NCBI RefSeq assembly: GCF_029953285.1
Contig: NZ_JASAOI010000020.1
Location: 1 to 64,000 of the forward strand
Length of the DNA stretch: 64,000 bases
Source of the DNA: Yinghuangia seranimata
Lineage (GTDB): Bacteria; Actinomycetota; Actinomycetes; Streptomycetales; Streptomycetaceae
Direction: 5' to 3'
Shown: positions 12,963-15,775 of the stretch, piece after piece
Layout of the letters: the number at the start of each line of letters is the position of its first letter
How positions within the stretch are numbered: position 1 is the first letter of the stretch
Notes under the pieces: generated by a model
The model's input: only the letters and a program-made list of their open reading frames with translations
The model's database searches: none
Told to the model about the DNA's origin: nothing
Program-made: the position numbers and the translations under genes

Positions 12963-13358
12963 TCAGCCCCAGAACTCGTTCCCCAGGTCGAGGTCCTCGA
13001 CGCACTCGTCGATGTCGCTCATCTTGCCGCCGACGATGGTGAAGAACAGCGAGCCGAGGGTGTCTATGCTGCGGCCCTCACGCGTCGCGGTGATCCGGTG
13101 AACGGAGATGGCGTGGCCGCGCCCGTCGGGCATCACCGACTGGAGCTCGACCTTCATCGTGCCGTCGGTCATCATGCCCATCTTCATGTAGTAGTCCAGG
13201 CAGGCGTCGACGCCCTTGTGGTGCCCGGACAACTGGTGGAGACCGGGGACATGGTGCACGCAGTCCGTGGTCAGCATCCCCCGGAGGGCGTCCATGTCGC
13301 CTCTGTTGAACGCGGCGTAGCCGTTCTTGACCAGCGTGACGTCGGGGTGTTCAGCCAT
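12963..13358 (-). CDS. SnoaL-like / nuclear transport factor 2-fold protein
   Basis: A 131-residue protein of the SnoaL-like NTF2-fold group. It has the characteristic N-terminal helix followed by a substrate-pocket loop (VKNGYAAFNRGDMDALRGML, then TTDCVHHVPGLHQLSGHHKG), a sheet region (MKVELQSVMPDGRGHAISVH) and the closing strand FFTIVGGKMSDIDECVEDLD. These proteins are cyclases, isomerases or ligand binders and the family does not fix the reaction. The ATG at 13358 has AGGTGA upstream; an extended frame adds 14 residues. It follows RidA on the same strand, but a strong 20-bp hairpin separates them, so co-transcription is doubtful. Whether it handles a product of the neighbouring oxidase is speculation. 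Confidence 0.82.
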   Translation of the reverse strand: MAEHPDVTLVKNGYAAFNRGDMDALRGMLTTDCVHHVPGLHQLSGHHKGVDACLDYYMKMGMMTDGTMKVELQSVMPDGRGHAISVHRITATREGRSIDTLGSLFFTIVGGKMSDIDECVEDLDLGNEFWG

Positions 13359-13405
13359 GACTGATTCACCTGCTATGTCGTGATTGTCCCGAGGTTTCAT
13401 CGTCT

Positions 13406-13450
13406 CTCTCCCGCGCCCGGCCCGGCAACACCGGGCCGGGCGCGGGAGAG
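13406..13450 (-). terminator. Strong 20-bp hairpin after RidA gene
   Basis: ctctcccgcgcccggcccgg (13406-13425) is perfectly complementary to 13431-13450 with a 5-base loop. It begins 5 bases past the RidA stop and should end the oxidase-RidA transcript before the SnoaL-like gene. Confidence 0.8.
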
Positions 13451-13454
13451 CCGG

Positions 13455-14177
13455 TCAGCGCCGGGACTTCGGATAGACCGCGGTGACCTCGACCTCCACC
13501 AGCCAGCCGGGCACCGCCAGCGAGACCACCTCCGTGGTGGCCCGCGCGGGCCGGGCCGGGTTGGTCAGCAGCGGGGCCTTGGCGGGGGAGGTGCCCATCG
13601 GGACCGGAACCGGCTGCTTCGTCGTCAGGTCGGTGTTCGCGAAGAACTGGCGGTACGCGCGGTTCCAGCCCGCGTAGTCGGCCGCCGCCGCGCCCGGGGG
13701 CCGGACGAGGTAGCACTTCATGGTGACCACGTCGGCCGGGGTGAGCCCGGCCGCCTTCAGGTTGTCCTGGATCGCCTTCAGCACCACCAGGGACTGCGCC
13801 TCGGTGACCGTCACCCCTTGCGCGCCCGCGGTCGTCGCGGGGTCGGTGAACATCTCCGGGGACCCGGCGGGCGCGCCCGGGTTGAGCGCGCCGGGGCCCA
13901 GCCCGCTGCTCTGGTAGACGGCGACCTCGCCGCCGAGGCCGACCCCGGTGGCGATGGCGGGGTTCGACTGGCCCGCGGGCAGGGCGACCCGCACCTCCTT
14001 GTCGCCGATCCGCTCGTCGTGGGCGTCCGCGGCGCCGACCCCGGTGACGGTCGCGCACGCGACCGCCAGGACCGCGGCGGCGACAGCGAGCCCGCCCTTG
14101 CGGCGGGCGGTGGCCCGGCCGAGGCGCCGGGCGGGGTGGGCGGCCGGGCCGCTGCTCACTCGATTCAGCTCGCTCAT
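13455..14177 (-). CDS. Exported RidA/YjgF-family protein
   Basis: A 240-residue protein with an N-terminal export signal and a RidA-type domain. The signal has a basic region (RRLGRATARRKGG) and hydrophobic core LAVAAAVLAVACATVTG near residues 28-45; a cysteine there could be a weak lipobox. The mature part shows the trimeric RidA fold: AIATGVGLGGEVAVYQSSGL, QSLVVLKAIQDNLKAAGLTP, DVVTMKCYLV and the C-terminal LVEVEVTAVYPKSRR. RidA proteins hydrolyse reactive 2-imino/enamine acids made by PLP enzymes or amino-acid oxidases; most are cytoplasmic. The ATG at 14177 overlaps the stop of the upstream amine oxidase (ATGA), so the two are translationally coupled. An imine scavenger exported with an exported oxidase makes functional sense (inference). 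The usual catalytic Arg should be checked by alignment. Confidence 0.82.
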   Translation of the reverse strand: MSELNRVSSGPAAHPARRLGRATARRKGGLAVAAAVLAVACATVTGVGAADAHDERIGDKEVRVALPAGQSNPAIATGVGLGGEVAVYQSSGLGPGALNPGAPAGSPEMFTDPATTAGAQGVTVTEAQSLVVLKAIQDNLKAAGLTPADVVTMKCYLVRPPGAAAADYAGWNRAYRQFFANTDLTTKQPVPVPMGTSPAKAPLLTNPARPARATTEVVSLAVPGWLVEVEVTAVYPKSRR

Positions 14178-15775
14178 GCCGCCATCACCCTCGTGTGCAG
14201 ATCCGTCACGACCTTGCGCGCCGACGAGAACGCGCCGTGCTGCCAGGCGATGACGTGGCTCAGCCAGTCGCCCGCGAAGTAGACGTTCCCCTGGGCCTGG
14301 TTGAGCAGCTTGTACTCGGGCCCGTTCTGGTCGCGCCAGCCGACCCAGCCGCCTTCCAGGTACGGGGTGCGGTGCCACGCGACGCTGAACGACGCGTCCA
14401 GTTCGGTGCGGTACCGGTCGCCGAAGATCTTCACCCCCTGGTCGACCGCCCGCTTGGCGCGCTCCTCGTGCGCGAGCCTGCCGTACGCCTCGGCGTTGGC
14501 GCCGTAGTTGTAGTAGCCGATGACCGTGCCGCGCCGGCCCTGGAAGCCGTACGACGGGAACCACATGTTGCTCAGGTCGAGCGTCGTCGGCACCACGCCG
14601 CCGTACATGCGGTCGTCCAGCTCCCACCAACGGCGCCGGTACTCGAGGCCGATCTTGCCGACCGCGAACGGCACCGGCGTTTTGAGCGCTCCGGTGACCG
14701 CGTCGCCGAGGTTGTGCCGCAGCCGCGCGGCGATGTGCGGCGGGGTCGCGACGACGCAGAAGTCGGCGCGTTCGGCGTGCTCGCTCCCGTGCGCGTCCTT
14801 CCAGGTGACCTCGACGCCGCCGGGCACGTTGGCGACGCCGGTGGCGGCCGCCTCGTACTGGATCCGGTGCCGTCCGACGGCCTTCTCCAGCGCGCGCGGT
14901 ATCGCGTCCATGCCGCCGACCGGCTGGAACATCATCATCGCCTGGTCGTAGCCGAGTTCGAACGAGAACCGCATGCCGACACCGCTCGCCAGGACGTCGG
15001 ACAGCGACGGCACCGGGCCGAGCACGGTGCCGGCGTTCTCCGCCGCCCCGGGTTCGACCGTGTAGCCGCGCCGGTCGGAGCCCGCGTACTTCCAGCCGTC
15101 TGCCTTGCCCTTGATGGCGCCGAAGTCCTGCAGGAAGGCGAGCAGCCGGTCCTTGTCGTCCTTGGTCAGCGCGGTGTCGAGCGCGCCCTGGTCGGTGGCC
15201 TTGGCGAGCAGTTCGGAGACGTAGCCGTAGACGTCGGACTTGGCGGTGCGCCAGCGCATCGGCTTGCCGCTCAGCGGCCCGGCGTCCTCGTGGTAGATGT
15301 ACGCGTCCGCGTTGGCGTTGACGAACGGCTGGAGTTCGACGCCCAGTTCGCGGCAGTAGTCCAGGGTGACGTGCGACTGCGGCAGCCGCCCGGGCCCGCA
15401 GTTCATGTACTGGCCGTCGGAGAACCGGGCGCGCTGGGTGCGCCCGTCCAGGTCGGTCTCGACGGTGCCGCCGCGCGCGGTCCAGTTGCGGCCGCCGGGG
15501 CGGTTCTTGGCCTCCAGGATCCGGCAGTCGTAGCCCGCCTTGCCGAGCTCGTACGCGGTCGCCAGCCCCGCGATGCCGGCACCCAGCACGACCACCTTCT
15601 TGCGGCCGCGCCCGGTCAGCCGGAAGTCGGACTCCTGCGGCGCGCGGTACGGCTCGGCTCCGGCGACCGGCACGGGAGCGAGCCCCAGCGCGCCCATGGC
15701 GGAGTACATGACGCCGGCCCCGCCGGCCAGGCCGACACTGCGCAGGAAGCCGCGGCGTGACGTTTCTTCGAGCAT
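14174..15775 (-). CDS. Tat-exported flavin amine oxidase (L-amino-acid oxidase type)
   Basis: An FAD-dependent amine/L-amino-acid oxidase of 533 residues. The N-terminal twin-arginine signal is TSRRGFLRSVGLAGGAGVMY. The Rossmann FAD motif is VVVLGAGIAGLATAYELGKA followed by the second arginine motif RPGGRNWT. A substrate domain lies in the middle (about residues 150-350). The C-terminal FAD segment reads VYFAGDWLSHVIAWQHGAFS. Such enzymes oxidise amines or amino acids to imines plus hydrogen peroxide; the imine then hydrolyses to a keto acid and ammonia. ATG 15775 is preceded by GGAGGAC at ideal spacing, and a longer frame upstream lacks a Tat-like start. It is coupled by ATGA to the exported RidA gene. 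Substrate unknown; L-amino acids are likely from overall similarity. Confidence 0.9.
   Translation of the reverse strand: MLEETSRRGFLRSVGLAGGAGVMYSAMGALGLAPVPVAGAEPYRAPQESDFRLTGRGRKKVVVLGAGIAGLATAYELGKAGYDCRILEAKNRPGGRNWTARGGTVETDLDGRTQRARFSDGQYMNCGPGRLPQSHVTLDYCRELGVELQPFVNANADAYIYHEDAGPLSGKPMRWRTAKSDVYGYVSELLAKATDQGALDTALTKDDKDRLLAFLQDFGAIKGKADGWKYAGSDRRGYTVEPGAAENAGTVLGPVPSLSDVLASGVGMRFSFELGYDQAMMMFQPVGGMDAIPRALEKAVGRHRIQYEAAATGVANVPGGVEVTWKDAHGSEHAERADFCVVATPPHIAARLRHNLGDAVTGALKTPVPFAVGKIGLEYRRRWWELDDRMYGGVVPTTLDLSNMWFPSYGFQGRRGTVIGYYNYGANAEAYGRLAHEERAKRAVDQGVKIFGDRYRTELDASFSVAWHRTPYLEGGWVGWRDQNGPEYKLLNQAQGNVYFAGDWLSHVIAWQHGAFSSARKVVTDLHTRVMAA

Follow-up and report, generated by a model that had tools for sequence, protein, structure and literature searches.

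A Tat-signal L-amino acid oxidase gene overlapping the gene of a Rid-family protein with a Sec-type N-terminus in Yinghuangia seranimata

Known systems and the Yinghuangia gene pair

Rid proteins appear in the literature mostly as protectors of cytoplasmic enzymes, and outside the cytoplasm imines are usually left to water. Here we describe, within a stretch of 64,000 nt from Yinghuangia seranimata (contig NZ_JASAOI010000020.1; the whole stretch is called the window in the following), two overlapping genes for an L-amino acid oxidase (LAAO) and a Rid-family protein, both with N-termini that look like export signals. Chlamydomonas reinhardtii is already known to have an LAAO outside the cytoplasm together with a RidA-type partner, and a bacterial operon of this kind is known from Gluconacetobacter diazotrophicus. 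In Chlamydomonas, LAO1, which makes H2O2, and LAO2/RIDA, a putative RidA, occur together in the periplasm, belong to one gene cluster and are linked to the deamination of external L-amino acids (PMC10805672). This system resembles the locus in the window in its periplasmic LAAO and RidA-type partner, but it belongs to a eukaryote, and the likeness is drawn from published descriptions. The lao-cccA-ridA operon of Gluconacetobacter contains ridA together with the gene of a Rhodococcus opacus-like LAAO with a signal for twin-arginine translocation (Tat), for which a periplasmic site has been proposed (PMC5053998, where the periplasmic LAAO-RidA complex of Chlamydomonas is also cited). It differs by the cytochrome c gene in the cluster, by a signal peptide that is given for the LAAO only, and by the role studied, which was auxin synthesis.

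Furthermore, RidA hydrolyses LAAO-made imines in vitro, and Rid genes cluster with genes of flavin adenine dinucleotide (FAD)-dependent amine oxidases (PMC4433059). RidA, Rid2 and Rid3 proteins that bear the catalytic Arg share this hydrolysis (PMC4433059, PMC5619798), and this Arg is described as the determinant of deaminase activity in Rid proteins (PMC5619798). Among the Rid3 members are PFL_1385 and PSPTO_3006, which deaminated LAAO-made imines in vitro and were assayed with D-arginine dehydrogenase and a venom LAAO (PMC5619798). In view of these reports, the claim of the original prediction that an exported oxidase with its own imine-clearing partner is not a described system cannot be upheld. 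What appears to be new, as far as the sequence tells, is an actinobacterial pair lacking cytochrome c, with a Rid3-like protein that carries insertions and with separate putative Tat and Sec (general secretory) signals. The elements of the pair are located as follows.

14174 to 15775, minus strand: L-amino acid oxidase, 533 amino acids, FAD-dependent (PF01593); best solved relative, R. opacus LAAO (2jae)
15656 to 15775, minus strand: Tat signal of the LAAO as read from the sequence, with SRRGFLR at residues 6-12 and likely cleavage after AGA (residue 40)
13455 to 14177, minus strand: Rid-family protein (PF01042), 240 amino acids, Rid3-like by its best solved chains (PFL1385, PSPTO3006), Arg212 and Glu228 kept
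14022 to 14177, minus strand: N-terminal Sec-type signal of the Rid as read from the sequence, likely cleavage after ADA (residue 52)
14174 to 14177, minus strand: ATGA shared by the stop codon of the LAAO gene and the start codon of the Rid gene
13406 to 13450, minus strand: perfect 20-bp GC-rich hairpin directly 3' of the Rid stop, a probable terminator without U tract

The two open reading frames and their ATGA overlap on the minus strand were confirmed in the sequence: the LAAO stop codon TGA (14176-14174) and the Rid start codon ATG (14177-14175) have these four letters in common. The first enzyme had been predicted as a Tat-signal flavin amine oxidase. Tat signal and flavoenzyme stand (PF01593 match at residues 68-526 with 134.7 bits and E 7.4e-39, N-terminal FAD dinucleotide motif VVVLGAGIAGL), and only the term amine oxidase is imprecise. 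The best solved relative is the LAAO of R. opacus (E 7.6e-149), to which 236 of 471 aligned residues (50%) are identical, and the alignment pairs R130 with Arg83, Y422 with Tyr370 and K374 with Lys322 of the printed R. opacus chain, whose substrate-site residues are presumably those numbered Arg84 and Tyr371. Because of this match and because Arg, Tyr and Lys are in place, the enzyme is better read as an LAAO of the R. opacus type, for which oxidation of L-amino acids with release of H2O2 is predicted. For other LAAOs, the roles of the carboxylate-binding Arg and Tyr and of the catalytic-water Lys are stated in PMC9331233. A cytochrome-c-dependent dehydrogenase was considered and rejected, since there is no cytochrome gene at the locus: nothing lies between LAAO and Rid, a cytochrome c gene of the lao-cccA-ridA type is not present, and the next genes are a SnoaL-like and an ACT-domain gene.

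The second protein had been called a RidA. It does belong to the Rid family (PF01042, 39.9 bits against a cut-off of 27.3, the match spanning only profile positions 41-120 of 121) but not to the canonical RidA subfamily, for which TIGR00004 gives 23.2 bits against a cut-off of 106.25; the Sec-type signal that had been ascribed to it is plausible from its N-terminus. The catalytic residues are present in the Rid as in the LAAO. R212 and E228 are invariant in all 22 rows of an alignment covering three phyla, and we take R212 to be the equivalent of RidA Arg105, based on a P-x-R motif in the alignments and on the motif letters of the RidA sequence. The two best solved matches are PFL1385 (4.3e-11) and PSPTO3006 (2.7e-6), both placed in Rid3 by PMC5619798, so the protein is probably Rid3-like, an assignment by nearest match. 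They resemble it also in their catalytic Arg and differ in that both are without two insertions that are found in the actinobacterial Rids and are missing from all other rows of the alignment.

A GGAGG upstream of the LAAO gene ends 4 nt before the ATG at 15775. A longer frame from ATG 15862 (562 amino acids) was judged less likely because of this spacing and because the twin-arginine motif at residues 6-12 is then near the start, as in most relatives. At the other end the hairpin folds with a z of -7.79, and none of 200 shuffles folded equally well. As it comes directly after the Rid stop, it gives the gene pair the look of a closed unit. When 120 bases behind the pair were searched in nine relatives, three (L018, L045, L046) had hairpins of 15-16 bp and six had none of at least 9 bp. 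A consensus promoter and terminator scan gave no matches; its terminator model needs a T run, and the scan is uninformative for GC-rich actinomycetes.

The ATGA junction recurs in five other actinobacteria (L018, L019, L010, L024, L045). In comparison with Yinghuangia soli, the mature Rid differs at 23, 17 and 67 sites in codon positions 1, 2 and 3 (182 codons), a mark of purifying selection, and the signal part at 24, 29 and 25 sites (53 codons). The recurring junction and the purifying selection on the mature Rid therefore indicate that the gene pair is more than chance. The region is syntenic with Y. soli, and the alignment is limited to the two genes in S. jeddahensis (L019), Nonomuraea (L013) and S. 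mesophilus (L046). The SnoaL-like gene adjoining the pair (12963-13400) lies within a gap of the alignment with Y. soli.

Recurrence of the pair

A targeted scan of genome contigs with the LAAO yielded 33 actinobacterial loci. A twin-arginine motif is present in all of them (found by pattern in 31, by eye in L048 and L050), and a Rid gene adjoins the LAAO in 11; as the contigs of L048 and L050 end inside the gene, 31 loci were readable for this question. Together with the window, L010 and Nonomuraea, 14 actinobacterial pairs are available. Six of these including the window have the ATGA junction, and gaps of 14 nt occur in Nonomuraea and of 28-30 nt in Rhodococcus. In S. mesophilus the pair is kept with reversed gene order. 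In a midpoint-rooted LAAO tree of 36 rows (L048 and L050 left out; window, L010, L013, L015 and L017 added) the presence of Rid needs two changes, and none of 500 shuffles was as low, a clustering that near-copies inflate. This pattern would fit an old pair with subsequent losses.

The closest comparison is R. opacus itself. In strain ATCC 51881, whose LAAO is 100% identical to the solved chain over 478 amino acids and likewise has a Tat signal, a signal-bearing Rid gene lies 29 nt downstream of the LAAO gene (L044, 7594-8300). Here the Rid is lipoprotein-like, and the two genes do not overlap.

The pair also occurs outside the Actinomycetota. LAAO relatives were found in 39 records of a plasmid collection at 1e-40, and 18 LAAO loci were opened besides Nonomuraea and a broken Sulfitobacter locus (L080). 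A Rid gene is near the LAAO in seven of the 18, namely in Ketogulonicigenium, Microvirga, Sulfitobacter, Comamonas, Paracoccus, Metabacillus and Sphingomonas, in the last of them one gene away, with a TonB-dependent receptor gene in between. In five of these seven pairs LAAO and Rid are separated by a cytochrome c gene. The Metabacillus plasmid (L063, 2983-6246) has the order lao-rid-tatA-tatC with no gene between lao and rid; the annotation shows a gene for a B1 metallo-beta-lactamase further upstream (155-958). Relatives of the Microvirga Rid were present in 23 records, and seven more places were opened among them. In Proteus mirabilis (L074, 2470-4429) a Rid with a putative Sec-type signal starts 40 nt behind an L-amino acid deaminase gene. 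This deaminase matches the solved deaminases 5fjm and 5hxw and belongs to the DAO family (PF01266), not to the Pfam family of the LAAO. The association of the LAAO-Rid type thus recurs in three phyla (Actinomycetota, Pseudomonadota, Bacillota).

In even samples of genomes the pair seems to be rare, since single-protein searches, in which only 3-9 first-look candidates were scored per genome, found very few. Among 396 genomes of the phylum the Rid at 1e-12 and the LAAO at 1e-50 were each found in one, both times Y. seranimata itself. Among 293 genomes of the order the Rid gave three matches at 1e-10: Y. seranimata, G236 with the pair L010, and G096. The latter, from the same family, has this Rid type only as a C-terminal portion (L011, 1480-1677) and no LAAO in the stretch fetched, and is likely a remnant. 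A profile of the 22 Rid rows matched 19 of the 396 genomes, outside the window locus always with at most 58 bits. A scan of viral contigs with the Rid gave eight pattern matches, none of which encodes a relative.

Signal-like N-termini of the Rid proteins

The Rid of the window begins with a basic n-region (RR...ARRK), followed by the hydrophobic LAVAAAVLAVAC at residues 30-41 and then by ADA; the mean hydropathy of this 12-residue stretch is 2.79. Signal-like N-termini were seen in all 22 intact Rids that were read beside LAAO or L-amino acid deaminase genes (14 actinobacterial, seven others with LAAO and one from Proteus). The extensions are hydrophobic and mostly basic-headed, and most end in a site like that of signal peptidase I; the Rids of Rhodococcus and Comamonas have lipoprotein-like N-termini. 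Bosea and Cupriavidus Rids carry a signal-like extension too, although about 4 kb around them is free of LAAO and deaminase genes. A check of the surroundings of L076-L079, including the Azospirillum locus L078 and the Sulfitobacter locus L079, likewise turned up neither kind of gene. Furthermore, LLFAASSSWAA of the PFL1385 chain (residues 12-22) lines up with the signal of the Microvirga Rid and resembles the end of a signal.

Rids of other kinds served for comparison. None of the 13 Rid paralogues in the Y. seranimata genome has a signal-like extension. The profile matches in other actinobacterial genomes look like ordinary signal-less Rids in all 17 readable of 18 cases; L096 is without in-frame start codon, and for L086 the longest alternative start includes a hydrophobic stretch, which is missing from the RidA-like start.

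Several loci deserve mention in their own right. The annotated Rid start in Comamonas (5249; L056, 5189-5704) omits a lipoprotein-type signal that begins upstream. On a Komagataeibacter plasmid (L016, 3279-3770) a Rid frame with a signal-like stretch has no in-frame start codon; transposition genes lie upstream of it, and there is no LAAO in the stretch fetched. The Sulfitobacter Rid loci L079 and L080 are truncated or broken. One paralogue of the window Rid (L073, 46-1194) is a frame of 382 amino acids with Rid-like matter at both ends and without signal, possibly a double-domain protein.

Proposed function and alternatives

Based on the tight gene pair with its overlap, the signal-like N-termini, the conserved residues and the recurrence in three phyla, we propose a two-gene operon for extracellular amino-acid deamination, consisting of an exported LAAO and an exported imine-hydrolysing Rid. 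We give this a probability of roughly two in three. The LAAO would receive its FAD in the cytoplasm and leave it in folded form via Tat. Outside the membrane it would turn L-amino acids into 2-imino acids, with O2 going to H2O2. The Rid would be exported separately via Sec, fold outside, probably as a trimer, and meet the LAAO there; hydrolysis of the imino acid by means of its conserved Arg would yield 2-oxo acid and ammonia. Faster ammonia release and fewer imine side reactions may result. The signals, the catalytic Arg, the tight pair and the recurrence elsewhere thus speak for the earlier idea of an extracellular oxidase with an imine-clearing partner; we infer from sequence the co-transcription, the actual export, the imine clearance by the window Rid, its substrate range and its benefit.

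Several observations weigh against this proposal. Imines hydrolyse spontaneously in water. No Rid was found in the fetched flanks, the only parts searched, of 20 of the 31 readable actinobacterial LAAO loci (for L032 the flank covers only about 1.2 kb behind the LAAO gene), nor within about 3 kb of the LAAO, again in flanks only, in 11 of the 18 plasmid loci. Therefore an LAAO can work without a neighbouring Rid, and an obligatory partnership was rejected. Signals were judged by eye from hydropathy, basic n-region and cleavage motif, and start codons were picked by eye by an analyst who knew the expected outcome. A relative from Azospirillum (L078) has no signal. An AlphaFold prediction for the window Rid, built on 12 closely related rows, reached a mean predicted local distance difference test (pLDDT) score of 41.7, which is too poor for use.

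Among the alternatives, the one that survives best would make the exported Rid part of an extracellular LAAO complex, with a structural or stabilising instead of a catalytic role, like the M-beta subunit described for Chlamydomonas, and the two actinobacterial insertions could then be contact surfaces. For a purely structural part the invariance of Arg and Glu in 22 of 22 rows from three phyla is unexpected, so the conserved Arg speaks against such a role; likewise the partner enzymes, which come from two families (PF01593 and PF01266), speak against a fixed complex. We regard this reading as unlikely.

Somewhat less probable still is that the N-terminus does not act as an export signal in vivo, and that the Rid stays cytoplasmic, or membrane-anchored with its domain inside, and clears imines of the cytoplasm. 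The n-region of the window Rid is unusually long, with 29 residues ahead of the hydrophobic stretch, the Rid of Y. soli is without a clear Ala-X-Ala site, and the judging of signals by eye counts here as well. However, by the positive-inside rule, basic residues before a hydrophobic core put the domain outside; moreover, short signals or lipobox-like sites occur commonly among the relatives, and the paralogues are without such an extension.

Finally, it is most improbable that the exported Rid is an oxidant-tolerant holdase which shields LAAO and neighbours from the H2O2 that the LAAO produces, as might be thought because chlorinated E. coli RidA reportedly shows chaperone activity, since the same Rid type accompanies the Proteus deaminase, which is not known to make H2O2, and also LAAOs from which a cytochrome c gene separates it, and the invariant Arg would be left unexplained.

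Beyond the single pair, Rid3 might mainly be an export subfamily whose imine hydrolases, secreted or periplasmic, were recruited by two or more families of flavoenzymes, the MAO-type LAAOs of Actinomycetota, Pseudomonadota and Bacillota and the DAO-type Proteus deaminase, to deal with imines arising outside the cytoplasm. PFL_1385 would then be a periplasmic enzyme. We put this forward only tentatively: it is weakened by the missing signals of the Azospirillum protein and of the solved PSPTO3006 chain, where the alignment leaves no room for one (144 amino acids, beginning with either a native or a construct start). By term count, signal, export and secretion are unmentioned in PMC5619798. In the open-licence literature searched we found no statement that a Rid branch is exported as a rule, and no mention of a Rid partner gene for the R. 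opacus LAAO or of a Rid partner for the Proteus deaminase.

The pairs described here supply a natural partner for two enzymes, the structurally solved LAAO of R. opacus and the L-amino acid deaminase of Proteus, which is used as a biocatalyst. If there is indeed a recurrent exported Rid branch tied to imine-making flavoenzymes, the control of metabolite damage would take place outside the cytoplasm as well.
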